This document shows positions 76 through 20,698 of a stretch of DNA of 24,096 bases, piece after piece; positions within the stretch are counted from its first letter, which is position 1; every line of letters begins with the position of its first letter. The notes under the pieces were generated by a model, which was not told the DNA's origin, made no database searches, and saw only the letters and a list, made by a program, of their open reading frames with translations. Origin of the DNA: Lachnospiraceae bacterium UBA6998 (GTDB taxonomy: Bacteria; Bacillota; Clostridia; Lachnospirales; Lachnospiraceae); NCBI GenBank assembly GCA_002448395.1, contig DJXS01000109.1:31194-55289 (forward strand), written 5' to 3'. The position numbers and the translations under genes are program-made.

Positions 76-417
76 TTCTTTTCTCGTGGTCCTGGGGCCA
101 TTGCCTTGCGTGCTTTATTTGAGATTGGGGGTGCATTATACATATAATTAATCCGCATGCTATATAGTGCTATACAAGTAGTATGGCCTGCAGGCAGTTG
201 GCAATGAGATAAGGGAGTATGTCTTATAGTACTATATAAGGAGATCTCTGCGTTTGTCTCAGCGTTCTGGCAGCACGTGCCGGCTGCCGGCGTGGTCCCT
301 CGTATAATGCTCCAACAGTATATGGGGCTGATCCTGGTTGTTAGCACCGCGCCGCGGTATCTCACTTGTATTGATCACAAGGCATGCATAAGTGATACGC
401 TTCTATATAACCCGACA
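76..417. other. Noncoding region rich in dyads
   Basis: No credible gene is seen here. The stretch holds several dyads: TATAGTGCTATA at 163-174 and TATAGTACTATA at 225-236, the palindrome GCCTGCAGGC near 187-196, ACCGCGCCGCGGT at 346-358, and an imperfect inverted repeat GTATC(TC)ACTT / AAGTGATAC at 357-367 and 390-398 with CTTGT/ACAAG nested inside it. Such clusters occur at replication origins, recombination arm sites and operators, and I cannot choose among these. It lies downstream of the repressor and at the edge of the element, so an attachment or origin role is possible. Confidence 0.4.
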
Positions 418-419
418 CG

Positions 420-438
420 AAAAAAGACGCCGGGCGTC
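420..438 (-). terminator. Terminator of the repressor gene
   Basis: On the minus strand GACGC-CCG-GCGTC is followed directly by six T. The hairpin overlaps the stop codon of the leftward repressor gene, a compact arrangement. Confidence 0.7.
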
Positions 439-760
439 AATTCCCAGCGTCCTTAGTTCCAGCGTCCTTTACTGTCAGCCTGTCAGGCTCTCCCCGTGCA
501 ATCGCAAGCAGCGCCTTGCACAGATCATCATTCCCGGAAACCGCGCATATCAGCTCCCTCTCTGCGTCAGACCTCGCAAGGAGCGCAGCCGGCGGGACAT
601 CCAACACAGCCGCCATTTGCATAATCTTATCAACAGACGGAGAAGCGCTGCCCCGGCTGTATCCCGACATTGTGGCCTTTGTAACCCCAACCTCGACCGC
701 GAGCTCTTTCTGTCTTATGCCGCGCGCCTTTAAAACTGCATTCAAATTATCACAAAACAT
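437..760 (-). CDS. XRE-family (Cro/CI-like) repressor
   Basis: This 107-aa protein has an N-terminal helix-turn-helix of the Cro/CI (XRE) class. The motif spans about residues 8-60, with RQKELAVEVGVTKATMSGYS as the helix-turn-helix core and the family's SPSVDKIMQMAAVLDV stretch after it. The C-terminal 45 residues are short and contain no LexA-like peptidase motifs, so it is not a self-cleaving repressor. A ribosome binding site AGAGGTGAT precedes the ATG at the family's usual spacing. It is divergent from the early operon, as in temperate phages, and probably binds the AT-rich region at 780-1020 to control the 990-1018 promoter. The C-terminus has a small duplication (KDAGTKDAG). The family is clear; the role as lysogeny-type repressor is inferred from position. 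Confidence 0.85.
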   Translation of the reverse strand: MFCDNLNAVLKARGIRQKELAVEVGVTKATMSGYSRGSASPSVDKIMQMAAVLDVPPAALLARSDAERELICAVSGNDDLCKALLAIARGEPDRLTVKDAGTKDAGN

Positions 761-799
761 AATATCACCTCTTTTCTGTCATACTTATCTTCTATATTG

Positions 800-828
800 A
801 TTATAAAAAAACTTAACACAAAACGCAA
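800..828 (-). promoter_or_regulatory. Probable promoter of the repressor gene
   Basis: On the minus strand TTGCGT (823-828) is followed after 17 nt by TATAAT (800-805), about 40 nt upstream of the repressor start. The -10 is perfect and the -35 is a partial match. Confidence 0.5.
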
Positions 829-989
829 ACAGAAAAATGCAAAAACAAGCACTTCACAAAATGTTCACACTTATTTTTCCCTTTATTTACTGCACAAAAT
901 TCAAAATTATGATAATATAAGATCATCGAAACAGGCAGAAGATCATAAAAAATAATTCGAAAAAAATTCAAAAAAATTATAATTTATAG

Positions 990-1018
990 TTGACATTAAT
1001 TCGGACCTATAATATAAT
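990..1018 (+). promoter_or_regulatory. Consensus sigma-A promoter of the early operon
   Basis: TTGACA at 990-995 and TATAAT at 1013-1018 are separated by exactly 17 nt, a full consensus housekeeping promoter. Transcription should begin near 1025. A promoter this strong needs tight repression in the integrated state, which fits the adjacent XRE repressor. AGATCAT occurs twice just upstream, near 920 and 942, and could be part of an operator. Confidence 0.85.
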
Positions 1019-1024
1019 AAGTAC

Positions 1025-1337
1025 AGAAACAAAGAGGAACAAGAACGAACAACTGAATAGCCGGCGACGCGAAAGCGACCCGGATAGGGATAGACCTCAC
1101 AGGAAAACGGGGATCCCGAATAAGCAACAAAAAAGAGGACAATTTAGCCGATACGAGATAAGAACCCCGGAAAACCGGGGATAAAAGGAAGATAAGGCGG
1201 CGAAAGAAGAAAGATCAGACCTGGGGACAGCACGCAGGAAGCGGAGACTGTACGGCGAAGATCTTACAACGGACGCCAAACCAGGACCATTCAGGGACTG
1301 GGAGTGATACGAAAGTACACTCCCGGTCCTTTTTTTA
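1025..1337 (+). ncRNA. Structured leader or small RNA
   Basis: The transcript from the 990-1018 promoter would run about 310 nt to the terminator at 1294-1337 without a convincing reading frame. It contains small stable hairpins, including CGC-GAAA-GCG near 1068-1077 and CCCCGG-AAAA-CCGGGG near 1165-1180. It could be an independent small RNA, or an attenuation/antitermination leader controlling the operon beyond. No sequence match to a known RNA family is recognised. Confidence 0.45.
1294..1337 (+). terminator. Intrinsic terminator inside the operon leader
   Basis: GGGAGTG (1300-1306) pairs with CACTCCC (1318-1324) and GGAC with GTCC below it, followed by eight T. It stands between the main early promoter and the first gene, with no obvious new promoter downstream, so the operon must be transcribed by readthrough. 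Confidence 0.8.
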
Positions 1338-1513
1338 TTATCTCAAGCGGCATAACAAAGCGGGAAAGCAAGCCGGAAACGGCAGAAGAAAGAGGATCAA
1401 TAGCAGCCGGCAAGCGCCGGCCCCTTGCCAAGACCCGGAAACGGCGAGCGATGGAAAAAAGTAGGAACAAGAAAAACGAGGATTTCTCTCACACTAGACA
1501 CAAAGAACACACA
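1338..1513 (+). other. Leader between terminator and first gene
   Basis: No gene is supported here. Near 1403-1428 two hairpins compete for the same bases: GCCGGC-AAGC-GCCGGC, and GGCAAG pairing with CTTGCC. No good -35/-10 pair is visible. The region is purine-rich and otherwise featureless. Confidence 0.35.
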
Positions 1514-1591
1514 GGACCGCACAAGACACGAAACGGACAGCGGCATAAACCGGGTGCAATCCCCGGGCGGTCTGTTAGCCCGACAGAGGGC
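1514..1591 (+). repeat. T-arm-like intergenic RNA element, copy A
   Basis: GGACCGC (1514-1520) pairs with GCGGTCT (1567-1573), giving seven pairs with one G-U. Directly inside the 3' strand is a 5-bp stem CCGGG/CCCGG with the 7-nt loop TGCAATC (1555-1561), which mimics a tRNA T arm (T54, C56, A57, A58 kept, G at 55). Then come GTTA and a second hairpin GCCC-GACAGA-GGGC (1578-1591), 17 nt before the next start codon. The linker between the 5' strand and the T-arm-like stem is 29 nt. Confidence 0.6.
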
Positions 1592-1608
1592 GCGAAAGGA
1601 GAACAAAT

Positions 1609-1965
1609 ATGAGAGATAACACGATTTACAAGGAGATCATCAGAGGACAGATCATAGACAGCTGCGAGACGACGCTGTCAGGGATATTAACGCTGGACGG
1701 GATCAGATATGAAGATCTCGCGGTCAACAGGAGAAGAGTGATCGTATGCCAGGGCGTCAATGACGTCGAGTTCACCGCATCCGGTTATATCCACCTGACA
1801 GACCCCATATATATAGCGGTCGAGATCGAGGGCAGCGTAGACAGACACGGAGTACACATAGGACGGATCAAGGATACTTACCGCGATATGACGATATGGG
1901 GCAAAGATGAGGACGGCAAACGCTGGACGCCCAAGGATTACCTGATAGCCCGCCTGTGCGAATGA
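1609..1965 (+). CDS. Unknown early-operon protein, 118 aa
   Basis: First gene of the early operon, with a strong ribosome binding site AAAGGAG eight bases before its ATG. The protein is soluble, acidic and rich in beta-prone residues (for example GYIHLTDPIYIAVEIEG), with no signal peptide or membrane segment. I recognise no family. Being first after the regulated leader and just ahead of the replisome organizer suggests an early function in DNA metabolism or regulation, but this is position-based only. A protein made first in the operon is a natural candidate for binding the repeated RNA elements; nothing in the sequence proves it. Confidence 0.7.
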   Translation: MRDNTIYKEIIRGQIIDSCETTLSGILTLDGIRYEDLAVNRRRVIVCQGVNDVEFTASGYIHLTDPIYIAVEIEGSVDRHGVHIGRIKDTYRDMTIWGKDEDGKRWTPKDYLIARLCE

Positions 1966-2156
1966 TGATCGCAGAAAGAAGCGCTCGGTCCTGGCTGACG
2001 GCTGATGCCGCGGCTGGGGACGCAGACAGACACACAGCCGGCCCGGGTGTCACAGCCCGGATCGGTACTCGCCACATTAAAAATACCGGAAAAAACTTCA
2101 ATTTATACAGAGTGGCAGAATTACAACAAAAAACAGAGAGAAAGGAACAGACAGAT
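1966..2156 (+). other. Intergenic region with hairpins
   Basis: The reading frame of the next gene is open upstream to 1956, but the ribosome binding site and domain start place its ATG at 2157, leaving this gap noncoding. It holds CGGC-TGAT-GCCG (1999-2010) inside GTCC/GGAC (1988-1991 and 2018-2021). It also holds CCGGG-TGTCACAG-CCCGG (2043-2060) followed by ATCGGTAC. The last hairpin resembles the T-arm-like element but has an 8-nt loop and no 5' partner strand, so at most it is a decayed copy. Confidence 0.4.
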
Positions 2157-3083
2157 ATGAGAAGAGAAGAGAAACGCGAAAAGATGTATTTCTTGCAGAT
2201 GTCTTCAAAATTTTTTGATGAGATCGCAGTAAAGCGCCTGGTGTTGACCGGCGGAAACGATGCACTGGTGATCTACCTGCGCATCTGGTGCAAGTCACTC
2301 GAAACCGGCGGAGTGATCGAATTGACGGGCATGGGAATGGAGCCCGCCGAAGAGATCGCGCTGATGATAGACTGCCCGGCAGTCCCCCAGGTCGCGAGCG
2401 TGCTGACAATGTGCCAGGCATACGGCCTTATCACAGTCGGAGAAGGCGACAGCGGGAAGATCATTAACTTCTCCCTGACGGAAGACTACACCAGGGCATG
2501 GACGCGCGAAGCAATTATGAGGCGCAACGACAAGACCAACAGGATCGAAGCCACAGAGGAGCCGGCAATGATCGAAGCGAAGGAAGAACCGGAAGAGACC
2601 GAAGAAGAGCGCAAGAAGCGCGAGAAGAAAGAGGCGGCCAAGCGCAAGAAAGCCGAAGAAAAGGCGCGAATTGATGAGTTCTTCGAACGGCTCTGGGCGG
2701 CATATATACCGGGGCACAAGGACGATAAAAACGCGGTTAAAGCGGCCCGCCGAAAAGAGCTTTATGAGATCGGCGAAGAGAAATGCCTGCAGGCGCTGGA
2801 AGCATACGAGCAGTGCGATAGAGTCCGAAAAGGATTTGTTTTGAAAGCATCAAAGTTCTGGAACTACGAAATCAGCAACATATTAGACACAATGCAGGCA
2901 ACACAGCAGACAACGCAGAAACCGCAGGCCCCGACAAGAACCACCATCAAGGCACAGCTCGAGGCGGACGGAGTCATATCTTTTGAAGGCGTAGACCGCA
3001 GCCGTTGGGAAAAGGTACAGAGCAAGTACGCGGATGGAGCAAAGGCCCTGGCTCTTGAAATTATGAAAGCAAATGAAATTTAA
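2157..3083 (+). CDS. Phage replisome organizer (replication initiator)
   Basis: A 308-aa protein. Residues 8-110 match the N-terminal domain of phage replisome organizers: the pattern YFLQMSSKFFDEIAVKRLV, then an ALVIYLRIWCKSLE helix and a loop/helix region ending GLITV. These proteins bind the origin and recruit the helicase. Residues 145-180 form a highly charged Glu/Lys linker, probably helical. Residues 180-240 form a second folded segment (FFERLWAAYIPG...), typical of the C-terminal helicase-loader half in this family. AAAGGAA precedes the chosen ATG; an in-frame start at 1956 would add 67 residues unlike the family. The next gene is the DnaB-like ATPase, the usual partner. The origin may lie within or near this gene, as in many phages. 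Confidence 0.8.
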   Translation: MRREEKREKMYFLQMSSKFFDEIAVKRLVLTGGNDALVIYLRIWCKSLETGGVIELTGMGMEPAEEIALMIDCPAVPQVASVLTMCQAYGLITVGEGDSGKIINFSLTEDYTRAWTREAIMRRNDKTNRIEATEEPAMIEAKEEPEETEEERKKREKKEAAKRKKAEEKARIDEFFERLWAAYIPGHKDDKNAVKAARRKELYEIGEEKCLQALEAYEQCDRVRKGFVLKASKFWNYEISNILDTMQATQQTTQKPQAPTRTTIKAQLEADGVISFEGVDRSRWEKVQSKYADGAKALALEIMKANEI

Positions 3084-3103
3084 CACAAAACACAGTACTC
3101 ATT

Positions 3104-3132
3104 CCGGGCTGAGGGCAGAAGCTCCGGCCCGG
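3104..3132 (+). other. Intergenic GC-rich hairpin
   Basis: CCGGGC (3104-3109) pairs with GCCCGG (3127-3132), with GAG/CTC inside. It lies between two replication genes, about 27 nt before a ribosome binding site, and has no T run, so it is not a terminator. It may protect the mRNA or occupy the slot that the repeated RNA element fills elsewhere; it lacks that element's loop sequence. Confidence 0.45.
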
Positions 3133-3169
3133 GATACAGGCAGAGAGACGAAAAACGAAAGGAGCAAAG

Positions 3170-4204
3170 ATGGAAAAAGAGCGGAATATCAATGACTTAC
3201 TGCAGGAAGCAAAACAGGAGCTGGGGATAAAGGATCACAAAGAACCGCCGGCCGGTGATATATGGGAGCCGATACCGGATGACGATGACCCGACACTGAC
3301 AAAGATCATGGATGCCCCGATAGAAGATGTTTACAACGGGCCGCGCCTGGCGACAGGGATCAGAAGCATAGACTCCAGATTATACGGCGGGATCAGACCC
3401 GGCGGGATGGCAATAATAGCCGGCCACGAGGGCGGCGGAAAAACCTCCTGGGCGTTGCAAATTATGGCGAAGGCGATGATCGCAGACGAACGGAGACGCC
3501 AAGCAAGGAACCCGAAAGACCCGCCATATAGCCGCGGGTGCTGCATCTTTTCAAGCGAGATGCCGGCGAAGAAACTGCACAGAATATTATCCCATCAGCT
3601 GGCGGGTCCCGGCGAGATCAAACCGACCGGCCCGGAAGATTTTCCGAGATACGAGGTCACAGACGAGGTTGATAACAAGGTTAAGCGGATATACGCCCCA
3701 TGGATAAGAGGCCTGGAACCCGAAATAAGCTCTCAGGGATGGAAAAAGCTCGTTGAGACCTGCGAGAAACAGGCAAAACAAGGCCGCCGATATTTTGTAT
3801 TAGATAACTTAATGACACTCTCAAACCTCATCGGAATGGACGCGGATCACAAAGGACAGAGCGAGAACAGCCTGCAGCTGGCAGTCGCAGCATGGGCCGC
3901 AGAATTTGCAGCCAAGTACGACGTATGGGTGATCTTAATAGCACACACCCGCAAAGAGACGCAGTGGGATGCATCCGCCACGAACTTAAATGACCTGATC
4001 AGCGGAAGCAAGACAGTTCCTAACCTGGCAAGCGTAGTTCTGTTTTTCACAATGTTACCCCAGGAAGACCGACAGGACGACCCGGACACGCCGGACAGAC
4101 TGGCCAGATTGACTAAGAACAGAGATCATGACAAGAAATTAACAAGAGGCGTAAGAACAGAATTCGAACCGGCCTCATGGACAGTATCAGAGAAAGAGCT
4201 GTAA
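3170..4204 (+). CDS. DnaB-like replicative helicase/ATPase
   Basis: A 344-aa RecA-fold ATPase of the DnaB C-terminal/Twinkle type. Walker A is GHEGGGKT at residues 85-92, Walker B is YFVLDN at 208-213, and a sensor strand VILIAHTRKE lies at 254-263. DLISGSKTVPNLASVVLFF follows, the segment that in DnaB precedes the DNA-binding loop and the arginine finger region (LTKNRDHD). It lacks the DnaB N-terminal primase-binding domain; the first 60 residues are an acidic tail. The start has AAAGGAG seven bases upstream. Next to the replisome organizer, it should be the helicase loaded at the element's own origin. A RadA/KaiC-like role in recombination is the alternative. Confidence 0.8.
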   Translation: MEKERNINDLLQEAKQELGIKDHKEPPAGDIWEPIPDDDDPTLTKIMDAPIEDVYNGPRLATGIRSIDSRLYGGIRPGGMAIIAGHEGGGKTSWALQIMAKAMIADERRRQARNPKDPPYSRGCCIFSSEMPAKKLHRILSHQLAGPGEIKPTGPEDFPRYEVTDEVDNKVKRIYAPWIRGLEPEISSQGWKKLVETCEKQAKQGRRYFVLDNLMTLSNLIGMDADHKGQSENSLQLAVAAWAAEFAAKYDVWVILIAHTRKETQWDASATNLNDLISGSKTVPNLASVVLFFTMLPQEDRQDDPDTPDRLARLTKNRDHDKKLTRGVRTEFEPASWTVSEKEL

Positions 4205-4211
4205 CAACAAC

Positions 4212-4279
4212 GGACCGATGCAAGAACCGCAACGCGGTCCGGGGTGCAATTCCCCGGCGGTCCATTACCCCACATGGGG
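4212..4279 (+). repeat. T-arm-like intergenic RNA element, copy B
   Basis: Begins seven nt after the stop codon of the ATPase gene. GGACCGA (4212-4218) pairs with GCGGTCC (4257-4263) apart from a terminal A-G mismatch. Inside are hairpin ACCGC-AAC-GCGGT (4226-4238) and the T-arm-like stem CGGGG-TGCAATT-CCCCG (4240-4256). ATTA and hairpin CCCC-ACAT-GGGG (4268-4279) follow, 25 nt before the next ATG. CGGTCC also occurs at 4235-4240, giving the 5' strand a second possible partner. Confidence 0.7.
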
Positions 4280-4304
4280 AACAAAGCGAAGGGAGAGGAC
4301 GCAG

Positions 4305-4820
4305 ATGATCAAAGCAAGAGCAAACAGCGAATTGCCGCTGGCCCCGTATATCCCGGATGCCCCGACAGTATACGGGCAGTGCATGGCAAAGCGAGCGCTC
4401 GGAGAGGACGACGGTTTTTACAGCATGTTTTCCCGGCGCCTGATTGCCGGCCTGTACATGGACCCGGTAGTTGATAAGCGTATACAGGAACTTTGCTGGC
4501 GGACGCTCTACAACGGAGAGGACCCGAAAGACATCGGATGGGAGCAGCAGTACAGACCCATTGGCCCGGACGGAGTAACGACACTGGTTATGTATGGGAT
4601 AGACATCATCGGAAAACGACAGCACGCAATTTTTGCCGGGACGCTCGAAGAGCGACAGGAACGAGACGAAATTGCGATGGTACTCAAAGACGGCTGGAAG
4701 GCCGAGAACAGACGTCAGGCGGCCGAAAGAGCCAAACGCGAAGCAGAACAGGAAAAGCGCGAAGCACGCGCAGCAGCAATCAAAAGAAACAGAGAAAAGA
4801 CGAAAGCGAAAGGAGAATAA
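4305..4820 (+). CDS. Unknown protein with charged helical tail, 171 aa
   Basis: The ATG at 4305 follows GGGAGAGG; an upstream in-frame ATG at 4218 lies inside the RNA element and is rejected. Residues 1-110 look globular (PYIPDAPTVYGQCMAKRALG, then a FYSMFSRRLIAGLYMDPVVD helix). Residues 120-171 are almost wholly Glu, Arg, Lys and Ala, a long basic helix or coiled coil that could contact nucleic acid. I recognise no family. It is soluble, lies between the helicase and RusA in the replication operon, and ends one base before the next start codon, so the two are probably translationally coupled. Confidence 0.7.
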   Translation: MIKARANSELPLAPYIPDAPTVYGQCMAKRALGEDDGFYSMFSRRLIAGLYMDPVVDKRIQELCWRTLYNGEDPKDIGWEQQYRPIGPDGVTTLVMYGIDIIGKRQHAIFAGTLEERQERDEIAMVLKDGWKAENRRQAAERAKREAEQEKREARAAAIKRNREKTKAKGE

Positions 4821-4821
4821 C

Positions 4822-5184
4822 ATGAAGAAACAGGAGATGGAGAAGGAAATGGCGATGAAAGATTACTACGAGACGGAATTCGAAGAGACCGTCGACGAAA
4901 TGCCGGAATACGCAGACGCGGACGAAATGGATGCGGAAATGGCCGCGATAGCAGAAGCCGAGGCCGCAGAAATGGAAGCGGCCGAGAGGGAATACGAAGC
5001 GGCCCGGGCGGCATTCGAGAGAGAAGAACAGGAAGCGGCGGAAAGAGAGGAAGCCAGACAGTACGAGGCGCTGGTATTCTCCAAATTCTGCGAGACACAG
5101 GACAGAATTGAAGACGCCATAAGACGCGAGATGGAAAGAACCGCCGGCAGATACTTCGATCACGTGGCGGTAAGCGGGGCATGA
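4822..5184 (+). CDS. Acidic coiled-coil protein, 120 aa
   Basis: The ATG at 4822 is preceded by AAGGAG and lies one base after the previous stop. The protein is very rich in Glu and Ala with heptad-like spacing (EMAAIAEAEAAEMEAAEREY), so residues 35-85 are a predicted coiled coil. A short more ordinary C-terminus follows (FSKFCETQDRIEDAIRREME). It has no recognisable domain. The start of rusA overlaps its stop (ATGA), implying coupled translation. Its composition suggests a scaffold or protein-binding role in the replication module; DNA binding is unlikely given the charge. Confidence 0.65.
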   Translation: MKKQEMEKEMAMKDYYETEFEETVDEMPEYADADEMDAEMAAIAEAEAAEMEAAEREYEAARAAFEREEQEAAEREEARQYEALVFSKFCETQDRIEDAIRREMERTAGRYFDHVAVSGA

Positions 5185-5621
5185 ACAGCATGAAAACATT
5201 CACATTTTTTGTAGAGGGGCGGCCCAAGGGCAAGGGCCGCCCACGCATGAACAGGAGAACCGGGCAGGTATACACGCCGGCAAGTACAAAGGAATATGAA
5301 AGCAAGATAAGACAGGCTTTCTTAAAACAGGGCGGCGAAAGCTTCGGGGATGCTCCGGTGATGATAGAGATCGAGGCGCTGTATCCGATGCCCAAGTCAT
5401 GGAGTAAGAAAGACCGGGCGGCGCTGGACGGCACTTTTTGTGACCGTCTCCCGGACATCGATAATTTGGCCAAAGTCGTGCTAGACAGCATCCAAGGATG
5501 CGCGACAGCGATAAACAATGACAAAAGCGTCGCCGTCTTAGTTGCACAAAAGCGCTGGACCTCCGGGGAGGGCGGCGTAGAGATCACGATCACAGATGTC
5601 AGTGACGACCAGAGCAATTAG
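5181..5621 (+). CDS. rusA: RusA-family Holliday junction resolvase
   Basis: A 146-aa protein matching RusA endodeoxyribonucleases, which cut Holliday junctions at phage recombination or replication intermediates. It opens with the family's FFVEGRPKGKGRPRMN and carries the catalytic group seen in E. coli RusA: D92 and D94 in PDIDNLAK, K98 in the same motif, and D114 in INNDKSV. Length is slightly above the 120-residue typical. The ATG at 5181 overlaps the previous stop by four bases; a second ATG at 5190 is also possible. Its stop codon's last base is the first base of RNA element copy C. Confidence 0.9.
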   Translation: MNSMKTFTFFVEGRPKGKGRPRMNRRTGQVYTPASTKEYESKIRQAFLKQGGESFGDAPVMIEIEALYPMPKSWSKKDRAALDGTFCDRLPDIDNLAKVVLDSIQGCATAINNDKSVAVLVAQKRWTSGEGGVEITITDVSDDQSN

Positions 5622-5681
5622 GACCGTCCCGGCAGACCGGGCGCGCGGGATCATCCCCCGGCGGTCCATTACCCCACGGGG
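5621..5681 (+). repeat. T-arm-like intergenic RNA element, copy C (diverged)
   Basis: GGACCG (5621-5626) pairs with CGGTCC (5662-5667). Inside are hairpin CCCGG-CAGA-CCGGG (5628-5641) and a stem CGGG/CCCG (5646-5649 and 5657-5660) with a 7-nt loop that has lost the TGCAATY sequence. ATTA and a hairpin of CCC/GGG (5672-5681) follow. The outer stem, the two-hairpin layout and the ATTA spacer are kept while the loop is not. Confidence 0.55.
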
Positions 5682-5718
5682 AGAACAGATTATATATAAG
5701 AAGCGAAAGGAGAACGAA

Positions 5719-6162
5719 ATGAGACTGACAGACGAAATGGGATTGTTTGACATCGATGAATGGGAGGCACTGGAAAGAGATGCACTGGCAGCCCAGGAGG
5801 AAGCGGAAGAAAGAGCACGCCGCATGATCACATACAGACGGGCGGATGACGGGACGCTGACACAGATAGGCGCGGATACAGAGCCCGCTCCGGATCTGGA
5901 CGTGCAGATCAATACGGACCCCGCCATGTATGCCAACAGACTGACAGAGGCGGCGGATGAAATATCACGCGTTGTTCACTACGGGAGACTGACGGAAGGC
6001 GAAGTGTCAGACGCGGCGGCCGTATACATCCAAGGACTCGGGTACAAGGTGGCTGCGGCGCTCCTGAGTGTGGTGGGGACATCACTCAGGATAGACCCCG
6101 ACGAGCTGGCACACAGAATATGCAAGATGGTGGATACCTACGAGGCGCTGACGGAGAAATAA
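5719..6162 (+). CDS. Unknown acidic protein, 147 aa
   Basis: AAAGGAG stands eight bases before the ATG at 5719; upstream in-frame codons fall inside RNA element copy C. The protein is acidic and mostly helical, beginning MRLTDEMGLFDIDEWEALER, with a small middle segment (TQIGADTEPAPDLDVQINTD) and a C-terminal helical region. No signal peptide, membrane segment or catalytic motif is seen and I recognise no family. The N-terminal EWEALERDALAAQEEAEERA helix could oligomerise. Confidence 0.65.
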   Translation: MRLTDEMGLFDIDEWEALERDALAAQEEAEERARRMITYRRADDGTLTQIGADTEPAPDLDVQINTDPAMYANRLTEAADEISRVVHYGRLTEGEVSDAAAVYIQGLGYKVAAALLSVVGTSLRIDPDELAHRICKMVDTYEALTEK

Positions 6163-6169
6163 CATAACA

Positions 6170-6243
6170 GGACCGATGACAGAACCGGGAAACCGGTCCG
6201 GGGTGCAATTCCCCGGCGGTCCAATCATTACATGGGTCGCATG
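6170..6243 (+). repeat. T-arm-like intergenic RNA element, copy D
   Basis: Begins seven nt after the previous stop. GGACCGA (6170-6176) pairs with GCGGTCC (6216-6222) except at the last position. Hairpin ACCGG-GAAA-CCGGT (6184-6197) replaces ACCGC/GCGGT of copy B, a compensatory C-G to G-C change. The T-arm-like stem CGGGG-TGCAATT-CCCCG (6199-6215) is identical to copy B. The spacer ends in ATTA and the following hairpin is CATG-GGTCG-CATG (6231-6243), a different sequence with the same position and shape. CGGTCC is again duplicated (6194-6199). Confidence 0.7.
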
Positions 6244-6291
6244 CATAAGAGCAGAAAACAACAGATGTTTTTATGAAGGGAGAACGAAGAT

Positions 6292-6501
6292 ATGAGAGAC
6301 ACGAGGAGCAACAGGATGTTATGCGCAGCAGTGATCCAGCAGGCGCGCCAGGTCGCAGAAATGGGCGGCGGTAACGTAAGGTTCACAACGCCGGACGGGC
6401 CGCAGGAGATCGGGGATGACATCGATATCGAGATCGAGTACAACAGCAGACCGACCAGGGCGGACGGATACAGGCAGTTACTGGCAGCAATAGGAGCGTG
6501 A
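6292..6501 (+). CDS. Unknown small protein, 69 aa
   Basis: The ATG at 6292 is preceded by AAGGGAG. The protein has a helical first half (MLCAAVIQQARQVAEMGGG) and a beta-like second half (DDIDIEIEYNS). It is soluble and lacks recognised motifs. It ends four bases before the sigma-like gene and is likely translated with it. A small accessory partner of that regulator is possible but unproven. Confidence 0.6.
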   Translation: MRDTRSNRMLCAAVIQQARQVAEMGGGNVRFTTPDGPQEIGDDIDIEIEYNSRPTRADGYRQLLAAIGA

Positions 6502-6505
6502 TGAT

Positions 6506-6931
6506 ATGGCGGGACGGAACGTTGAAGCAGTCCTGGAAAGACCGGGGCAGATAGCGCGGATCATCCGCGATATTGAGGCGGACATCACGGCAATAAGGGC
6601 CGGCTTTGAGGCCGGCTCTCCGTCCTTATCATTTGCACCCGGGGGCGGCGGCGGGAAAAGAGATCTTTCTTCGTATTATGCCCGCGTAGAGGAGCTGCAA
6701 GAGGTCAGGGCGGAAGCCGTGGAGTCATTTGCAGCAGCGCAGGAAGAAGCGGCGGAGGTGCTGATCGGATGCCGGTCACAGAAAGCACGGCACTTGCTGG
6801 CACTAAAATACATGCGCGGATACACCGTGCGAGAGATAGCGGACGCGCTGGGCATGGGATATGACACAGTATACACAACGATCAGGAGAGAAATTGGACA
6901 CTTACAGCGAAAGGAGATGGAAGAAGCATGA
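6506..6931 (+). CDS. Sigma-like / ArpU-type transcription regulator
   Basis: A 141-aa protein whose C-terminal 50 residues form a sigma region 4-like helix-turn-helix: ALKYMRGYTVREIADALGMG followed by YDTVYTTIRREIGHLQ. The N-terminal part is helical, with a flexible Gly-rich patch (APGGGGG) near residue 46-51. Proteins of this shape are common at the end of phage early operons in Firmicutes, where they are called ArpU-type or RinA-like late activators. Its position as penultimate gene before the terminator fits. The likely target is the promoter region just beyond, driving the paralogue pair or genes elsewhere in the element. GGAG lies upstream of the ATG. Confidence 0.7.
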   Translation: MAGRNVEAVLERPGQIARIIRDIEADITAIRAGFEAGSPSLSFAPGGGGGKRDLSSYYARVEELQEVRAEAVESFAAAQEEAAEVLIGCRSQKARHLLALKYMRGYTVREIADALGMGYDTVYTTIRREIGHLQRKEMEEA

Positions 6932-7140
6932 AACTGACAGAATGGAGAGAAAGAATGGCGGCAGCAAAAAACCCGTATGACATACACGAGGCAGGCCGCA
7001 CAATTGGCCGCGATATGACGATCGCAGACGCGGCGGAACTGGCGCGCGAAACGGTATACAGGCCGACAGTACACCACTCAGAGGATGAGGCAGTGCTGAT
7101 CACACTCGCGGCGGCGCTGGAAAGACTGGCGGAAGAATGA
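6928..7140 (+). CDS. Unknown small protein, 70 aa
   Basis: The start overlaps the sigma-like gene's stop by four bases (ATGA), with AAAGGAG upstream. The protein is acidic and helical (MKLTEWRERMAAAKNPYDIH...) with no recognised domain. It is the last gene before the UUCG terminator. Overlap and shared strand argue that it is real and translated with the regulator. Confidence 0.6.
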   Translation: MKLTEWRERMAAAKNPYDIHEAGRTIGRDMTIADAAELARETVYRPTVHHSEDEAVLITLAAALERLAEE

Positions 7141-7151
7141 TGATCACACGG

Positions 7152-7180
7152 GGGCCCCTTCGGGGGTCCTTATTTTTTTC
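7152..7180 (+). terminator. Terminator of the early operon
   Basis: GGGCCCC-TTCG-GGGGTCC is followed by TTATTTTTTT. It lies 12 nt after the last early gene and separates the replication module from the paralogue module. Confidence 0.85.
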
Positions 7181-7181
7181 C

Positions 7182-7211
7182 TTTACATTTAAGTATTTTA
7201 TATAGGATAAT
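7182..7211 (+). promoter_or_regulatory. Probable promoter of the paralogue module
   Basis: TTTACA (7182-7187) and GATAAT (7206-7211) are 18 nt apart. About 150 nt of untranslated leader follows, including CGCCG/CGGCG arms near 7291-7317. The paralogue pair therefore appears to be its own transcription unit. Confidence 0.5.
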
Positions 7212-7362
7212 ATACATAGAAAGCACGTCAATTGTTACCGCATCTGGTAAAAAAGCCGTAAAAGATACGTAACAATAGAAAATGGGAAAACGCCGAGAAA
7301 AAACACCGGAAGCGGCGCCGGGCTAGTTTTATTGCGCTCATTTTACAGGGAGGTGATACAGA

Positions 7363-8049
7363 ATGTATGCAACAGCAGCAGCGGAAACGATGGCAGAGAC
7401 ACGGGGAATGGAGTGGCTGAGGGAAGATATTGTCCTATATCTTACAGGAGAGATGACCGACATCATAAACCGACATACCAGCCAGACATGGGGCGGATAC
7501 CGCAGACGACACTTAGGAGAGCGCGGCCTGCTGATCATACACACAGTGGACGGGCAGCCCGGTCTGCGGATGTGCTGGTATCCATACAGGGACGGGACAG
7601 ATGACGTTCCGGGAATGGCAGCATTGCACACGAGCGCCGGCGATTATGAGATAACTGACGGCCCGGAGCTGATCATGACTACAAGTAATTCCATTTACAC
7701 GGTCTCCCCGTGCCTGGATGAAGATCTTCTGGCATGGGGCGGAAAGATGTGCGCCGGGATATTCCTTACACAGGTAAGGGAGAGAGTCTCCCGTTACCGC
7801 CGCCGCGTGTTGGATTATATCCGGGATGATACGATGGATCCGTCGGCGGAGGTCCTGATATACAGACTGGCGGCGGAAATTGATATGCCGACAGACTGCC
7901 TGGACTGCGAGGACGTGGACGAGATGGCCATTGCATGGCTGGCGACAGACGTGGAGATAATAGATACCCTCATGTCCGCGGGGTATATAGACTGTGAAGA
8001 GTACGACATAGATATTGATGATATTGACATTGACCCCGATGGTCAATGA
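7363..8049 (+). CDS. Unknown accessory protein, paralogue 1 (228 aa)
   Basis: The ATG follows the strong site GGGAGGTG. The protein is soluble and shares scattered blocks with the next gene: RGLLIIHTV, then MCWYPYRDGTDDVPG near residue 70-84, AWGGKM near 124-129, a helix before DDTMDPSAE, and a C-terminal IIDTLMSAGYI. The last 18 residues are an acidic tail (DIDIDDIDIDPDG). Five cysteines, two in CLDCED, are present but do not form a clear zinc motif. I recognise no family. It lies between a terminator and the integrase, the usual place for cargo in satellites and integrative elements, so a host-benefit or phage-interference role is possible. That rests on position alone. Confidence 0.7.
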   Translation: MYATAAAETMAETRGMEWLREDIVLYLTGEMTDIINRHTSQTWGGYRRRHLGERGLLIIHTVDGQPGLRMCWYPYRDGTDDVPGMAALHTSAGDYEITDGPELIMTTSNSIYTVSPCLDEDLLAWGGKMCAGIFLTQVRERVSRYRRRVLDYIRDDTMDPSAEVLIYRLAAEIDMPTDCLDCEDVDEMAIAWLATDVEIIDTLMSAGYIDCEEYDIDIDDIDIDPDGQ

Positions 8050-8058
8050 TACGATACG

Positions 8059-8103
8059 GGGGCGGCGGGTTTCTCCTTCCTCCTTTTTTCTCCTGGCCGC
8101 CCC
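8059..8103 (+). promoter_or_regulatory. Hairpin with anti-Shine-Dalgarno-like loop
   Basis: GGGGCGGC (8059-8066) and GCCGCCCC (8096-8103) form a perfect 8-bp stem. The loop is almost pure pyrimidine and contains CCTCCTTTT, complementary to Shine-Dalgarno sequences. The downstream gene's site AAAGGA (8137-8142) could pair with TCCTTT in the loop. It may tune translation of the second paralogue. No T run follows the stem, so it is not a typical terminator. Confidence 0.5.
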
Positions 8104-8150
8104 AATACTAAAAACAACAGAGAAACACAGAAAGCGAAAGGACAGAGACA

Positions 8151-8816
8151 ATGAAAAGAAGAAGAACGACAGTAGACCACGGTATGGATTGGGCGACAGA
8201 GGCCGTATATCAGATGGGTCCGTGCATCGTAAAATACACGCAGACGGAGGAAACGGAAGAGGACATACAGACAGAGCTGACAGGCGCGCGGGGATTTGTT
8301 GTCATCCACACAGTAGCTGATGTTTTTGAACGCGTCAATGATAATCTATATGATGCACTGGTGGAGATGTATTTTTATCCTTATAGGGACGAGATGGCAG
8401 ATGTGGACGGGACCCCGCCCGAGGAGCTTTTCAAAGTGTACACGCATACCGGCATATGCACACCGACACTGTATGGCAAGATATTGGAGGTGGTCGCAGA
8501 CGGTATCAGATACGGCTTATTATGGGACCACGACCCGGAACGCGATGCATGGGGCGAAAAGATGCAGCAGAGAGTGGCCGAAATACAGGGAGACAATTTT
8601 GCCCGTTTTTACAAGCAGTATATCGCAGAATATCTGGACGGAGAACGGGATGATCCGAAGGGACATATACAGGCCATTATTGATATAATCAGAGACTTGT
8701 ACAGGGGGAAGATCAAGCGCCCGAGAGTTAACCAAGTGGGATACATTGCAGCCCGCAAGATGGTACAGGACCAGGAGGTAGTGGAGATGCTGAGGGCAGC
8801 CGGGCGGATTAAATAA
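8151..8816 (+). CDS. Unknown accessory protein, paralogue 2 (221 aa)
   Basis: Diverged paralogue of the preceding gene: RGFVVIHTV, MYFYPYRDEMADVDG, AWGEKM, DDPKGHIQ and a C-terminal VVEMLRAAGRIK appear in the same order with the same rough spacing. It lacks the acidic tail and has a basic start (MKRRRTT). AAAGGA precedes the ATG at 8151. It is soluble and no catalytic motif stands out; the most conserved feature of the pair is the aromatic block YPYRD. Two related but unequal subunits, or a duplicated gene diversifying, would both fit. Confidence 0.7.
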   Translation: MKRRRTTVDHGMDWATEAVYQMGPCIVKYTQTEETEEDIQTELTGARGFVVIHTVADVFERVNDNLYDALVEMYFYPYRDEMADVDGTPPEELFKVYTHTGICTPTLYGKILEVVADGIRYGLLWDHDPERDAWGEKMQQRVAEIQGDNFARFYKQYIAEYLDGERDDPKGHIQAIIDIIRDLYRGKIKRPRVNQVGYIAARKMVQDQEVVEMLRAAGRIK

Positions 8817-8989
8817 TCTAGTCAGTACACTATATATAGTAGATATGATGCGGAAACCCCGTCTTTTGTGCAGCCGGAGATAATAACATGACATTCCACA
8901 GGTAGACTATAATAGCGGCAGTTCCTTCCGTTTATCCGGCTGCATATATAGGCGGAAAAGATACAACAGGCAGCGAGGGGGTGATACAT
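8817..8989 (+). other. Intergenic region with long-range inverted repeat
   Basis: No gene is seen. TGCAGCCGGA (8869-8878) and TCCGGCTGCA (8935-8944) form a perfect 10-bp inverted repeat around a 56-nt loop. The loop contains TATAAT at 8908-8913, but no matching -35 is visible. The palindrome ACTATATATAGT sits at 8829-8840. The arrangement could be the closing stem of a small RNA that ends at the terminator at 9000-9023. Confidence 0.45.
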
Positions 8990-9010
8990 ATGACAATGGG
9001 GGCGCCATAA
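8990..9010 (+). other. Six-codon reading frame with strong ribosome binding site
   Basis: GAGGGGGTG stands eight bases before an ATG that opens MTMGAP and then stops. The stop codon lies in the loop of the terminator hairpin. The ribosome binding site and start context resemble those of paralogue 1 (GGTGATACA followed closely by ATG). It may be a minimal regulatory peptide, or the scar of a deleted cargo gene. Confidence 0.3.
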
Positions 9011-9023
9011 GGCGCCCTTTTTT
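9000..9023 (+). terminator. Intrinsic terminator after the paralogue module
   Basis: GGGCGCC-ATAA-GGCGCCC followed by six T. Confidence 0.85.
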
Positions 9024-9030
9024 GCATTTT

Positions 9031-9065
9031 GCAACAACTGCGTATTAAGTATACGCGTTTGTTGC
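9031..9065. repeat. Long dyad between cargo and integrase
   Basis: GCAACAACTGCGTAT and ATACGCGTTTGTTGC are inverted arms of 15 nt with 13 matching pairs around TAAGT. It lacks a T run on either side. A protein-binding operator or recombination arm site is more likely than a terminator. Confidence 0.5.
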
Positions 9066-9088
9066 AGCCCGTGCCTTACAGGGGGCGT

Positions 9089-9129
9089 AAAAAACTCCGC
9101 CTTATCTTTACCCCGGGTAGAGGACGGAG
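9089..9129 (-). terminator. Terminator of the integrase gene
   Basis: On the minus strand CTCCG pairs with CGGAG, with CCT/AGG and TACC/GGTA nested inside, and the stem is followed by six T. It lies 11 nt past the integrase stop. Confidence 0.6.
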
Positions 9130-9139
9130 AAGGACAAGA

Positions 9140-10300
9140 TCATGAATAAGGATTATCCAGCTGCTCCGGGATAAGATCATAATATATCCGCATGGTAACA
9201 GAGACATCCGAGTGACCGGCAAGGCGGGAAATTACTTTGATGTCCATTTTGTGCCTTATCTGATACGATATGCCGGAATGACGCAGATCATGCGGGGAGA
9301 GATCTTTTTTTATTCCCGCCCTTTCCAGTGCTTTTTGTAGAGTCCTATTGAGGTACTGCTGCGAGACGCGGCCGCCGTTTTTAGTACAGACAAAAGGCCC
9401 TTCTTGTTTCCCCGCCCTTTTTCTGCATATGTCCAGAGCTGCGACGGCCTGGGGACACAGAGAGACGGACCGCCTTCCGGCCCGTGATTTGGGCGTATAG
9501 ATGACGGTATGGGATCCCGGAAGGAGAGCGCCGTCCTTGTCCCTGTTTCTGATCTCCTGGGCGTTTTTTGTAACGGAGACAACATTCCCGGAAATATCCG
9601 ACCAGTCAAGGGCGATAAGCTCTCCGATGCGCAGAAAACTCCACATGAGAAACGCAAGCGCCGGCCCGTGTATGCTGCCGGAGATCCCAGGACGCACAGG
9701 CTCACACAGAATATCAGTCAGTTTTGTCATCTCTGCGTCTGTCAGAATATGTTCTCCGATCTCATCCGTGGATACAGAACGCGGACAGGTGACAGTTCCG
9801 GGGACCATCAGAATGGTCGTGTTACCGTTTGCCCGGCAATAGTCACAATACTGACGCAGCAGAGACAGCGTCTTTTTCTGCGTGCTTGTGGATTTTCCGG
9901 CTTTAAGCATCTGATTGATATGCGCCTGTATCTGCCTGTTGGACACATCGCAAAAGGGCGTTAACCCGAGGGGGGTGTCTTTAAGATCATTATTATAAGT
10001 ACTTTCAATCGTGTCCCAGGAACGGCCCTTTAATTGGTGTTGTTTGTAGTTGTACAGCCAGTCTTTGATGCAGTCCTGCAGGGGCGCTGTGCTGTCCTGG
10101 TCTGTCGGAGCGCGCTCTACTTGTTCCGCTGCCCGGATTGCTTCCCGTTTCTTGTCCATCAATTCCCGGCACTCTGATTTTGAAGTTCCTGAGACAGACA
10201 GCCGCCGGCCGTCCACGATTATACGATATATGATTTTCCCGTTCCGCTTGTCCACGGTGTAAGATCCTACGCCGTAACTTCTTTTAGATTTTTTGCCCAT
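9140..10300 (-). CDS. int: Tyrosine recombinase (site-specific integrase)
   Basis: A 386-aa integrase of the lambda/Tn916 type, which inserts and excises the element by strand exchange. Residues 10-60 form an AP2-like/arm-binding N-terminus (YGVGSYTVDKRNGKIIYRI). Residues 75-155 form the SAM-like core-binding domain. Residues 185-380 form the catalytic domain, with R224 (FLRIGEL), K271, H337 and R340 (HDLRH), H363 (AGHSDV) and a tyrosine at 373 or 374 (RIYYDL). All catalytic residues are present, so it should be active. The ATG at 10300 with AAGGAG is preferred over an in-frame ATG at 10351, because the extra 17 residues overlap an operator-like repeat. It reads away from tRNA-Trp, its probable target. 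Confidence 0.93.
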   Translation of the reverse strand: MGKKSKRSYGVGSYTVDKRNGKIIYRIIVDGRRLSVSGTSKSECRELMDKKREAIRAAEQVERAPTDQDSTAPLQDCIKDWLYNYKQHQLKGRSWDTIESTYNNDLKDTPLGLTPFCDVSNRQIQAHINQMLKAGKSTSTQKKTLSLLRQYCDYCRANGNTTILMVPGTVTCPRSVSTDEIGEHILTDAEMTKLTDILCEPVRPGISGSIHGPALAFLMWSFLRIGELIALDWSDISGNVVSVTKNAQEIRNRDKDGALLPGSHTVIYTPKSRAGRRSVSLCPQAVAALDICRKRAGKQEGPFVCTKNGGRVSQQYLNRTLQKALERAGIKKDLSPHDLRHSGISYQIRHKMDIKVISRLAGHSDVSVTMRIYYDLIPEQLDNPYS

Positions 10301-10320
10301 GATGTTCTCCTTCCGTTTTC

Positions 10321-10375
10321 TGTATCCAATCCGTTGCCAATCTGTTGCCAATGTTTGGCGTAAAAATTGGATACA
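10321..10375. promoter_or_regulatory. Operator-like repeats upstream of the integrase
   Basis: TGTATCCAAT (10321-10330) and ATTGGATACA (10366-10375) are a perfect 10-bp inverted repeat. Between them GTTGCCAAT is repeated in tandem every 11 nt, about one helical turn. The arrangement looks like sites for an integrase, excisionase or repressor bound on one face of the DNA. Confidence 0.55.
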
Positions 10376-10506: not shown

Positions 10507-10513
10507 GAACTAG

Positions 10514-10584
10514 CAGGGGAAGAGGGATTCGAACCCCCATGAACGGTTTTGGAGACCGTGATACTGCCATTGTATGATTCCCCT
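10514..10584 (-). tRNA. tRNA-Trp (anticodon CCA)
   Basis: The 71-nt cloverleaf has acceptor stem AGGGGAA/TTCCCCT with discriminator G, D stem ATAC/GTAT, anticodon stem ACGGT/ACCGT with loop CTCCAAA (anticodon CCA), a 4-nt variable loop, and T arm GGGGG-TTCGAAT-CCCTC. CCA is not encoded; CTA follows the discriminator. Its 3' end faces the integrase, making it the likely integration site. It is divergent from purL. Confidence 0.97.
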
Positions 10585-15404: not shown

Positions 15405-17174
15405 GTGGAAAAATTTCTGAATCTGATCTCCGCCGAGATGGCGGGTGCTTTCGATGCGGCCGGATATGACAGCGAACTCGGAAAGGTAACTGTCTCAAAC
15501 CGCCCCGACCTGTGTGAATATCAATGCAACGGCGCTATGGCGGGTGCCAAAAGATACCATAAGGCACCGCTCATGATCGCGAACGATGTGGCAGCGAGAC
15601 TTCAGGACTCGAGAGTGTTCTCATCGGCGGAAGCTGTAAAGCCGGGTTTTCTTAACCTGAAGATCCGGGAAGAGTTCCTCACCTCTTACCTCAACGAGAT
15701 GAGCGGCGCTGAGAAATTCGGCCTTGAGACGCCCGAAAAGCCCGCCTCCATCATTCTCGACTACGGCGGACCCAATGTTGCCAAGCCTCTTCACGTGGGA
15801 CACCTTAGAAGTGCCGTGATCGGAGAGGCTGTCAAGAGGATCGCCAGATATCACGGAGAGAAGGTCATAGGAGATATCCATCTCGGAGACTGGGGCCTTC
15901 AGATGGGTCTTGTGATCACGGAGGTCTCCAAAAGGCAGCCTGATCTGTGCTATTTTGACCCCTCCTATGAAGGAGAGTATCCCGAGGAGGCTCCTTTTAC
16001 AGTGTCTGAACTGGAAGAGATCTATCCCACAGCCAGCAAAAAGTCCAAGGAAGATCCGGAGTACTACGCTGAAGCGATGGCCAACACGCACCGGCTTCAG
16101 GAGGGCGACCGCGGCCTGAGAGCTCTGTGGAACAAGATCATCGAAGTCTCTGTGGCAGACATGAAGAAGAACTATGCCAACCTTGACGTCGATTTCGATC
16201 TCTGGTGGGGCGAGTCCACTGTACACGACGCGATTCCCGGCATGGTCGCCGATATGAAGGATAAAGGGCTGGCTTACGAGTCAAACGGCGCACTTGTAGT
16301 AGATGTTTCAGAGGAAAGTGACACCAAGGAGATCCCGCCCTGCATCATCCTCAAATCTGACGGAGCGGCGCTCTATACGACCACAGACCTTGCTACCATC
16401 AGCGAGAGGGAGAGACTTTATCACCCCGACCAGATCATCTATATCACGGATAAGCGTCAGGAACTTCACTTCCAGCAGGTTTTCCGCACAGCGAGAAAGT
16501 GCGGCCTTGTAGATGAGAACACTCAGCTGCGACACATCGGTTTCGGCACGATGAACGGCAGGGACGGCAAGCCTTTCAAGACAAGAGATGGCGGCGTCAT
16601 GAAGCTCTCCGACCTGATCAGTGATATCAACACAGAGATGAGAGGCAAAATAGCGTCAAACCCGGAGATCGGACCTGAGGAAGCAGAGAAGACCGCTAAG
16701 CAGGTCGCTCTCGCGGCCCTCAAATACGGCGATCTGTCCAATCAGGCCTCGAAGGATTATATTTTCGATATCGAGAGATTTACTTCTTTCGAAGGGGACA
16801 CAGGTCCTTACATCCTTTATACCATCGTCAGGATCAAATCCATCCTCGGCAAGTATGCCGCATCGGGCGGAAGAGATCTCTCTGAGCTCCGGATCGGCCT
16901 GGCACAGAGCAAGGCGGAGAAAGACCTGATGACAGATCTGGCAGGGTTCGGCGCCATGATGGACAATGCGTATACGGAGATCGCTCCTCACCGCGTATGC
17001 GCCTATATTTATCAGCTCTCCAATGATTTCAACAGTTTCTATCACTCGACGAAGATTCTGTCGGAACAGGATCAGGAGAAGAAGGAGAGCTGGATCGCAC
17101 TGCTCAAACTTACACTGGATATCCTCAGCGCCTGCATCGATGTTCTCGGCTTCTCAGCCCCGGAGAGAATGTAA
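15405..17174 (+). CDS. argS: Arginyl-tRNA synthetase
   Basis: A 589-aa class I synthetase that charges tRNA-Arg. The N-terminal domain (about 1-110, with SNRPDLCEYQCNGAMAGAKR) recognises the tRNA D loop. The HIGH signature is HVGH at residues 130-133, within GGPNVAKPLHVGHLRSA. A GKPFKTRDGG segment near 388-397 stands where the divergent KMSKS loop lies. The C-terminal helical anticodon-binding domain carries the expected YILYTIVRIKSI. I chose the GTG at 15405, preceded by AAGGAG; an upstream in-frame ATG at 15291 overlaps queH and adds unrelated residues. Length is normal for the family. Confidence 0.95.
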   Translation: MEKFLNLISAEMAGAFDAAGYDSELGKVTVSNRPDLCEYQCNGAMAGAKRYHKAPLMIANDVAARLQDSRVFSSAEAVKPGFLNLKIREEFLTSYLNEMSGAEKFGLETPEKPASIILDYGGPNVAKPLHVGHLRSAVIGEAVKRIARYHGEKVIGDIHLGDWGLQMGLVITEVSKRQPDLCYFDPSYEGEYPEEAPFTVSELEEIYPTASKKSKEDPEYYAEAMANTHRLQEGDRGLRALWNKIIEVSVADMKKNYANLDVDFDLWWGESTVHDAIPGMVADMKDKGLAYESNGALVVDVSEESDTKEIPPCIILKSDGAALYTTTDLATISERERLYHPDQIIYITDKRQELHFQQVFRTARKCGLVDENTQLRHIGFGTMNGRDGKPFKTRDGGVMKLSDLISDINTEMRGKIASNPEIGPEEAEKTAKQVALAALKYGDLSNQASKDYIFDIERFTSFEGDTGPYILYTIVRIKSILGKYAASGGRDLSELRIGLAQSKAEKDLMTDLAGFGAMMDNAYTEIAPHRVCAYIYQLSNDFNSFYHSTKILSEQDQEKKESWIALLKLTLDILSACIDVLGFSAPERM

Positions 17175-17199
17175 GCTTTATGCCATGCACTATTCACGA

Positions 17200-20373: not shown

Positions 20374-20415
20374 AAAACCGGTCCGGCGGAGAAAACTCTC
20401 CGCCGGACCGGTTTT
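20374..20415. terminator. Bidirectional terminator between hisA and cspA
   Basis: A perfect 19-bp inverted repeat (20374-20392 with 20397-20415) around AAAC. It has A at the left end and T at the right end, so it works on both strands for the convergent genes. Confidence 0.92.
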
Positions 20416-20425
20416 AAGATTATGA

Positions 20426-20626
20426 TCAGAGTTTGGTCACATTTACAGCCTGAGGGCCTTTCTCGCCCTGGACGATGTCGAATTCCACTTCCTGACCTTC
20501 TTCAAGAGACTTGAAACCTTCGCCGTTGATACCTGTATAATGTACGAATACATCGTTTCCTTCCGAATCACTGATGAATCCAAAACCGCGCTGGTTATTG
20601 AATCTTCTGACTACACCCTTACTCAT
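20426..20626 (-). CDS. Cold-shock protein, CspA family
   Basis: A 66-aa five-stranded nucleic-acid-binding protein that melts RNA structure. RNP1 is RGFGFI and RNP2 is VFVHY, both complete. [20 protein letters not shown] is a typical opening; ORF length is exactly the family's. GGAGGTAA precedes the ATG. The 5' leader contains dyads and is described separately. Whether it is cold-induced or constitutive cannot be told from sequence. Confidence 0.95.
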
Positions 20627-20660
20627 GCTGTTACCTCCGAATTATGTAATGAATGATTCA

Positions 20661-20695: not shown

Positions 20696-20698
20696 AAC

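Follow-up and report, generated by a model that had tools for sequence, protein, structure and literature searches.

A tRNA-like RNA element repeated between the early-operon genes of two prophages and its possible cleavage by host tRNA-processing enzymes

What would a structured RNA do when it recurs between the genes of a single phage operon? This question is raised by a 24,096-nucleotide stretch of the Lachnospiraceae bacterium UBA6998 genome (GCA_002448395.1, contig DJXS01000109.1, positions 31,194 to 55,289 of the forward strand; hereafter the window), in which the early operon of a prophage, recognisable by its att repeats and head genes, contains four copies of a repeated element, A to D. 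An earlier note on the window had described an acceptor/T-arm-like repeat with compensating stem changes and had offered RNase P processing, antitermination or protein binding as its function. Our analysis leads us to suggest, tentatively and with slightly less than even confidence, that the repeats are predicted tRNA mimics which RNase Z and RNase P of the host would probably cut, so that they would punctuate the phage early operon.

The four copies lie on the + strand and begin at positions 1514, 4212, 5621 and 6170. They are exactly the direct-repeat family listed first for window positions 400–9000, with a repeat core of 30 nt that is 67–100% identical to the reference copy. Copy A (1514–1577) comprises a 7-bp closing stem (GGACCGC/GCGGTCT), a 29-nt spacer, the T-arm CCGGG-TGCAATC-CCCGG and the tail GTTA. 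Copies B (4212–4267) and D (6170–6226), which are 87% alike, each have the closing stem GGACCG/CGGTCC and the loop TGCAATT; the middle hairpin is ACCGC/GCGGT in B and ACCGG/CCGGT in D, and the tails are ATTA and AATC, respectively. Copy C (5621–5671) is degenerate, with the closing stem GGACCG/CGGTCC kept, the T stem broken, the loop GATCATC and the tail ATTA. Short inverted repeats follow on the same strand. GCCC/GGGC directly after A (1578–1591), CCCC/GGGG directly after B (4268–4279) and CATG/CATG after D (6231–6243) were seen in the sequence and folded as hairpins; after C, the arms of CCCC/GGGG (5672–5681) are 2 nt apart and fold into a hairpin of 3 bp closing a 4-nt loop.

The positions, the GGACCG and GCGGTCY strands, the downstream hairpins, the loop TGCAATY in A, B and D and the change of the middle hairpin between B and D are thus as the earlier note had them. 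Other details held for some copies only. A 7-nt closing stem on a 5-bp stem describes A, whereas B and D are predicted to pair as 6 + 6 with the same sum of 12. The RTTA tail is found in A, B and C but not in D, where ATTA comes 4 nt further on. The middle hairpin is present in B and D, but A has no stable one. Finally, the T-arm-like fold is predicted for A, B and D but not for C, whose minimum free energy (MFE) fold lacks a 7-nt T loop and whose GATCATC is placed by alignment only.

Homologues outside the element's own phage, which had been set as a test in advance, were found in a second prophage. Among 62 genomes of the host genus, the DnaB-like helicase of the window has three relatives besides itself. 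The one in genome G054 is 32% identical and lies in an operon of similar gene order, whose replisome organiser and three small proteins are 23–31% identical to those of the window. The G054 early operon carries five further elements, G1 to G5, four of them with largely different stem sequence. On the − strand of locus L055, G1 (11589–11542) has the closing stem ACCGTCC/GGGCGGT, G2 (13744–13699) has CCGTCCC/GGGACGG and G3 (12757–12711) has GCCGTCC/GGGCGGC; G4 (9776–9706) is the only G054 copy in which GGACCG is kept. G5, with the closing stem GGAGCTG/CAGCTCC, stands before the first gene of the operon. By gene order, A and G5, B and G1, and D and G4 occupy corresponding positions, and the genes that follow A and G5 are not similar to one another. 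The copies cluster partly by phage (G1–G3 are 82–86% alike), and some gaps hold a copy in one phage only, namely that of C in the window and those of G2 and G3 in G054. Two other prophage regions of the genus with distant helicases contained no convincing copy. In the gap where G054 has G2, ahead of the replisome organiser, the window has a CCGGG/CCCGG hairpin with an 8-nt loop (2043–2060) that, judged by eye, is possibly a decayed copy.

Across both phages, the closing stem ends 12 nt after the loop in eight of the nine copies (in C by alignment only) and 13 nt after it in G5. The predicted stems split as 7 + 5 bp in A, 6 + 6 in B, D and G4, and 5 + 7 in G1–G3, in which the loop may be closed by an additional inner U-G pair; the sum stays at 12. 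In tRNA, the acceptor and T stems comprise 7 + 5 bp. The loop starts with TGCAA in seven copies (A, B, D and G1–G4) and with AGCAA in G5, and is GATCATC in C. Measured against the T-loop consensus TTCRANY, T54, C56, R57 and A58 are retained in seven of the nine copies, position 55 is G, and Y60 is missing in G1–G3. A D-arm is absent from the predicted folds of the copies.

This geometry was examined with a sequence-free descriptor that requires a 7-nt loop, a T stem of 5 bp, the outer six pairs of the closing stem, a 12-nt spacing and at least seven GC pairs. It was written after the elements had been seen, misses C and matches G5 in a register that lacks one base of the full stem. The descriptor gave three sense matches in window positions 900–9100 (A, B and D) and five in the homologous G054 region (G1–G5), together with one antisense match per region. 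In 100 shuffles of both regions, the mean was 0.28 sense matches and the maximum three. Seven of the eight real loops begin with TGCAA, as none does in the shuffles, and a spacing of 12 yields more matches than any other from 9 to 16. Applied to eight loci, a stricter descriptor returned A, G1–G3, the true tRNA-Trp and two unexplained matches in locus L088.

The stems also covary. In an alignment of eight of the nine copies (A6, its spacer letters set to N by choice), 95.8% of cells were paired, as compared to 70.7% in shuffles, and none of 500 shuffles reached the score. Two-sided changes occurred in 8 of 12 pairs, and sliding the partners by 1–3 columns lowered pairing to 37–60%. Because the copies are related, the covariation and descriptor figures are not probabilities; the covariation on these eight rows supports the compensatory stem changes proposed in the earlier note. 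Single-sequence folding of the cores yielded z-scores of −1.3 (A), −2.3 (B), −1.0 (C) and −2.8 (D), which is weak evidence.

All nine copies are in the sense orientation ahead of a gene. Seven also follow a gene, at 7 (B), −1 (C), 7 (D), 2 (G1), 7 (G2), 4 (G3) and 7 nt (G4) from its stop codon, where −1 denotes one shared base: copy B begins 7 nt past the stop codon of the helicase gene, copy D 7 nt past the upstream stop codon, and the rusA stop codon ends on the first base of copy C. A and G5 come after the terminator of a leader RNA, with no gene directly upstream. In seven of the eight copies scored (A–D and G1–G4), the ribosome binding site lies 22–60 nt and the start codon 35–74 nt past the element; G2 has no ribosome binding site by the pattern used. 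Predicted folding leaves this site unpaired in A, C and D. Six of the nine copies, judged by eye, have a short hairpin no more than 8 nt from the predicted 3′ cut: A–D, G3 (ATTGCCA/TGGCAAT) and G5 (GCCG/CGGC).

All nine copies have U as the second nucleotide past the discriminator position, in downstream stretches that contain 12% T. According to the account in PMC10100781, a U at most 2 nt from the discriminator raises the activity of Bacillus subtilis RNase Z approximately 200-fold. All 72 tRNAs scored in the genus lack an encoded CCA, 60 of them have a U within 2 nt of the discriminator, and the UBA6998 genome has its own RNase Z gene. The invariant U at +2, the CCA-less host tRNAs and the host gene lead us to favour RNase Z over RNase P. 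RNase Z is the best-supported candidate cutter, and RNase P is supported by shape: the predicted fold would provide the acceptor stem, T stem and T loop of a minimal model substrate, and acceptor–T-arm hairpins are described as model substrates of bacterial RNase P (PMC11143913). Among the functions named in the earlier note, tRNA processing is therefore favoured, with RNase Z placed above RNase P, and no evidence connects the copies to antitermination.

On this reading, the copies would fold in the cell as an acceptor stem with a T-arm. RNase Z would cut after the discriminator nucleotide, so that the downstream message would often open with a short hairpin, followed by a ribosome binding site of its own. 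At the other end, RNase P would cut before the first base of the closing stem, and the upstream message would then end at or just past its stop codon. A 5′ hairpin is expected to slow 5′ exonucleases, through which each gene could acquire its own message stability. We put forward with greater reserve the broader proposal of a phage-evolved tRNA punctuation, in which the early operon would be cut into single-gene messages and the freed tRNA-like RNAs could occupy host tRNA enzymes.

Several observations weigh against cleavage of a tRNA mimic. Copy C is degenerate, with a broken T-arm, and since it overlaps a stop codon, an RNase P cut would fall inside that codon. In a 104-nt context, the MFE fold of copy B differs from the T-arm-like one. 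The base ahead of the closing stem is not U in A–D, position 55 of the T loop is G, and B and D have spacers that lack a GG for the G19–C56 elbow contact that RNase P is described as reading (PMC11693755; elbow recognition also PMC4810234). The element is known from two phages only, and copies within one phage are related, so their counts are not independent. The Rfam tRNA model (RF00005) found no copy at E ≤ 5 or 10, and ARAGORN called only the tRNA-Trp in the window. ARAGORN's mitochondrial mode made a single call across the two real regions, as against 24 across 30 shuffled sets; being no better than with shuffles, this mode lends no support. At a 50% threshold, ARAGORN called dozens of tRNAs and was uninformative.

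Does the element belong to a described class? An Rfam search of the window matched only the tRNA-Trp (10514–10584) as a tRNA. The sole family listed for any copy was mascRNA-menRNA (RF01684), at 23.7 bits for D and 17.7 bits for B; both are far short of its gathering score of 42.5, and the G054 region gave no match. No Rfam match to the element attains a gathering score, which agrees with the earlier note, where it was not recognised as a known RNA family. In addition, none of 13 terminator-like sites in window positions 400–9200 falls on a copy. The element is neither a tRNA, nor a mascRNA by the Rfam threshold, nor a SAS/ESAS repeat, nor a terminator.

Searches for relatives used covariance models, of which R2 was built from phage copies only; at most 112 candidates per genome were covered in the genus and 17 in the family, so distant copies may be missed. 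In the 62 genus genomes at E ≤ 1, R2 found three other matches, all on tRNA genes, and missed G4. In 397 family genomes, its one match outside the UBA6998 genome was a terminator-like hairpin. Model R1 matched 25 of the 62 genus genomes at E ≤ 1; apart from the UBA6998 genome and G054, these were a mix of tRNA genes and weak matches. Dense tRNA gene arrays were seen in two genomes of the genus (L058 5495–10566 in G029:C69, and L062 in G027:C120), with 14 genes in 3 kb of L029/L063 and 13 in L062; those scored lack an encoded CCA, and the arrays are possibly mobile. Pattern matches in genomes G012 and G081, in apparent coding regions, were judged by eye to be chance. The viral collection held no match to GGACCG...TGCAATY...GCGGTCY or to the T-arm pattern of B, D and G4, and two matches to a looser pattern, apparently coding, were likewise judged by eye to be chance. 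The helicase as a query found no relative in the viral or species-genome collections. An alignment of helicases reached six distant viral loci, in which R1 scored at most 11.1 bits and R2 found nothing at E ≤ 1. Metagenomic contigs supply further relatives of the helicase, P0002–P0006, at 46–78% identity. Phage records held one distant relative of the helicase, 21 of the replisome organiser and none of the leader.

The main rival to cleavage is that the copies are binding sites that stay uncut, at which a phage or host protein that recognises a T-arm-like stem-loop controls the translation, stability or transcript elongation of the next gene. Such a role would suit an element that recurs ahead of several genes in one operon and whose loop is nearly constant; the protein could be encoded by one of several early genes without a known family, and an early leader with a terminator lies upstream of all copies. 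Binding leaves unexplained the 12-nt sum with its moving junction, the U at +2 in nine of nine copies and the tight placement at stop codons, and the ribosome binding sites of A, C and D are unpaired in the predicted folds. On balance, we consider this explanation doubtful. The same placement, with GC-rich stems beginning −1 to 7 nt past the upstream stop codon and further short hairpins after several copies, would fit plain stabilising hairpins that block 3′ exonucleases at message ends, with no recognition of a tRNA shape. We find this improbable: a plain hairpin requires neither a constant loop, nor constant spacing, nor a U at +2, and A and G5 have no gene directly upstream.

The loop itself suggests another reading, in which the loops pair with each other, since UGCA is self-complementary and could form kissing dimers within or between messages. 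UGCA opens seven of the nine loops, and C has GATC, likewise self-complementary, in the same place. However, G5 has AGCA, and the 12-nt rule and the tail would go unexplained, which leaves mutual pairing very unlikely. We give equally little credence to a mobile or recombining repeat that has no RNA function. The partial clustering by phage (82–86% among G1–G3, 87% between B and D) and the gaps filled in one phage only (C; G2 and G3) are what such a repeat might leave. Its nine copies nevertheless all lie in the sense orientation before genes, their stems covary, and A/G5, B/G1 and D/G4 correspond in position despite proteins that are 23–32% identical.

If the copies are cleaved as tRNA mimics, the nearest comparisons are with RNAs released by tRNA-processing enzymes. 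The mascRNA and menRNA are described as tRNA-like RNAs that lack a full D-arm and that RNase P and RNase Z cut out of longer transcripts (PMC11693755). The phage element is likewise predicted to have an acceptor stem, middle hairpin and T-arm, and to be excised; it differs in that the former derive from mammalian long non-coding RNAs and in that the small D hairpin of mascRNA has two conserved G, whereas the spacers of B and D lack GG. In mitochondria, tRNAs that lie between the genes of a polycistronic transcript are excised, which frees the messages. The phage copies are similarly placed between genes of a polycistronic transcript, and their excision is predicted, but the mitochondrial separators are true tRNAs and those proposed here are D-arm-less mimics in a bacterial virus. 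The RNase P sites in operon mRNAs and in C4 and M3 RNAs are, as far as is known, single sites or trans-acting RNAs, and we know of no repeated separator element or RNase Z signature among these substrates. Action of RNase P on non-tRNA transcripts, including bacterial operon mRNAs and the phage C4 and M3 RNAs, is described in PMC11143913. In cluster K mycobacteriophages, the SAS/ESAS elements are described as a conserved element before many genes, about half with an inverted repeat; SAS lies within the ribosome binding site itself, and ESAS, an imperfect inverted repeat of 17 bp, has a spacer that varies (PMC3203893). The element studied here is likewise repeated before several genes of one phage, but it excludes the ribosome binding site, which lies 22–60 nt beyond it in seven of the eight copies scored.

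More generally, tRNA mimicry is known from long non-coding RNAs and plant RNA viruses, and excised tRNA separators from mitochondria; in the open-licence full-text literature searched, no repeated tRNA-mimic separator in a bacteriophage operon was described. If the proposal is correct, a phage borrows the essential tRNA maturation of its host to set message ends and stability, and the simple geometry (7-nt T-loop, 12 bp and U) could be searched for in any operon. The element could also serve as a small natural substrate, free of a D-arm, on which to test the requirements of RNase P and RNase Z.

Upstream of copy A, a leader RNA of approximately 300 nt (window ~1025–1337; L055 15560–15215, − strand, in G054) lies between a promoter-like site and a terminator (1294–1337). 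The promoter-like site (990–1018, + strand) matches the sigma-70 consensus at 12 of 12 positions and is the likely start of the early operon. The two leaders are 82% identical over 255 nt, whereas the compared proteins are only 23–32% identical. Predicted folding of the leader is much stronger than that of its shuffled versions (z = −5.75; 0 of 100), and between the two phages one pair of its terminator stem has changed on both sides. It is present in 2 of the 62 genus genomes. Outside the two phages, DNA matches to it were short, in 14 genomes of an order sample and two of a family sample, and the latter two carry no element. A leader pattern scan of genome contigs returned one contig, from uncultured Lachnospiraceae RUG14676 and equal in length to G054:C1; pieces of the leader, or the stretch behind it, used as patterns had no match in the viral collection. 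Just behind the terminator, at 1420–1460, the window reads CTTGCCAAGACCCGGAAACGG, which is identical at L055 15135–15095 (− strand) and has no exact match among viral contigs. That the first gene lies beyond the terminator implies antitermination or a small RNA, and the leader may be either an antiterminator or a small RNA. The conserved leader and terminator keep the antitermination idea possible, and the present data show no link between the leader and the repeat elements.

The assignment to a phage rests on the surrounding genes. The att repeats are two occurrences of a 49-base sequence: one (window 10512–10560) takes in most of the tRNA-Trp gene's 3′ half and extends past it, and the other is near the start of the same contig (C37:8–56). 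The genes between them include those for terminase, portal, minor head and scaffold proteins. The window also carries genes for a repressor, the replisome organiser, the DnaB-like helicase, RusA and a sigma-like regulator, as well as an integrase-like open reading frame (ORF) named by eye (9140–10351). The att repeats and the phage genes between them place the elements in a phage early operon. The genes behind the copies are all on the + strand. No family was found for that behind A (1609–1965), and the families of the other three are unknown: the gene behind B (4305–4820) is 30% identical to that behind G1, the gene behind C (5719–6162) has a G054 relative (23%) that lacks the element, and the gene behind D (6292–6501) is 31% identical to that behind G4.

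Directly left of window position 1, a run of N (a scaffold gap) within an A-rich repeat was deduced from X residues in ORFs (L009 ~17107–17196); to the left of the repressor, the join may not be secure. In the same prophage, further left of the window, a 963-aa ORF (L009 13891–16782) by eye joins amidase-like, metallo-beta-lactamase-like and glucosaminidase-like stretches. On the − strand of the window, a cspA-thermoregulator-like match at 20378–20816 (55.8 bits, below the gathering score of 78) overlies a cold-shock-like ORF at 20426–20626.

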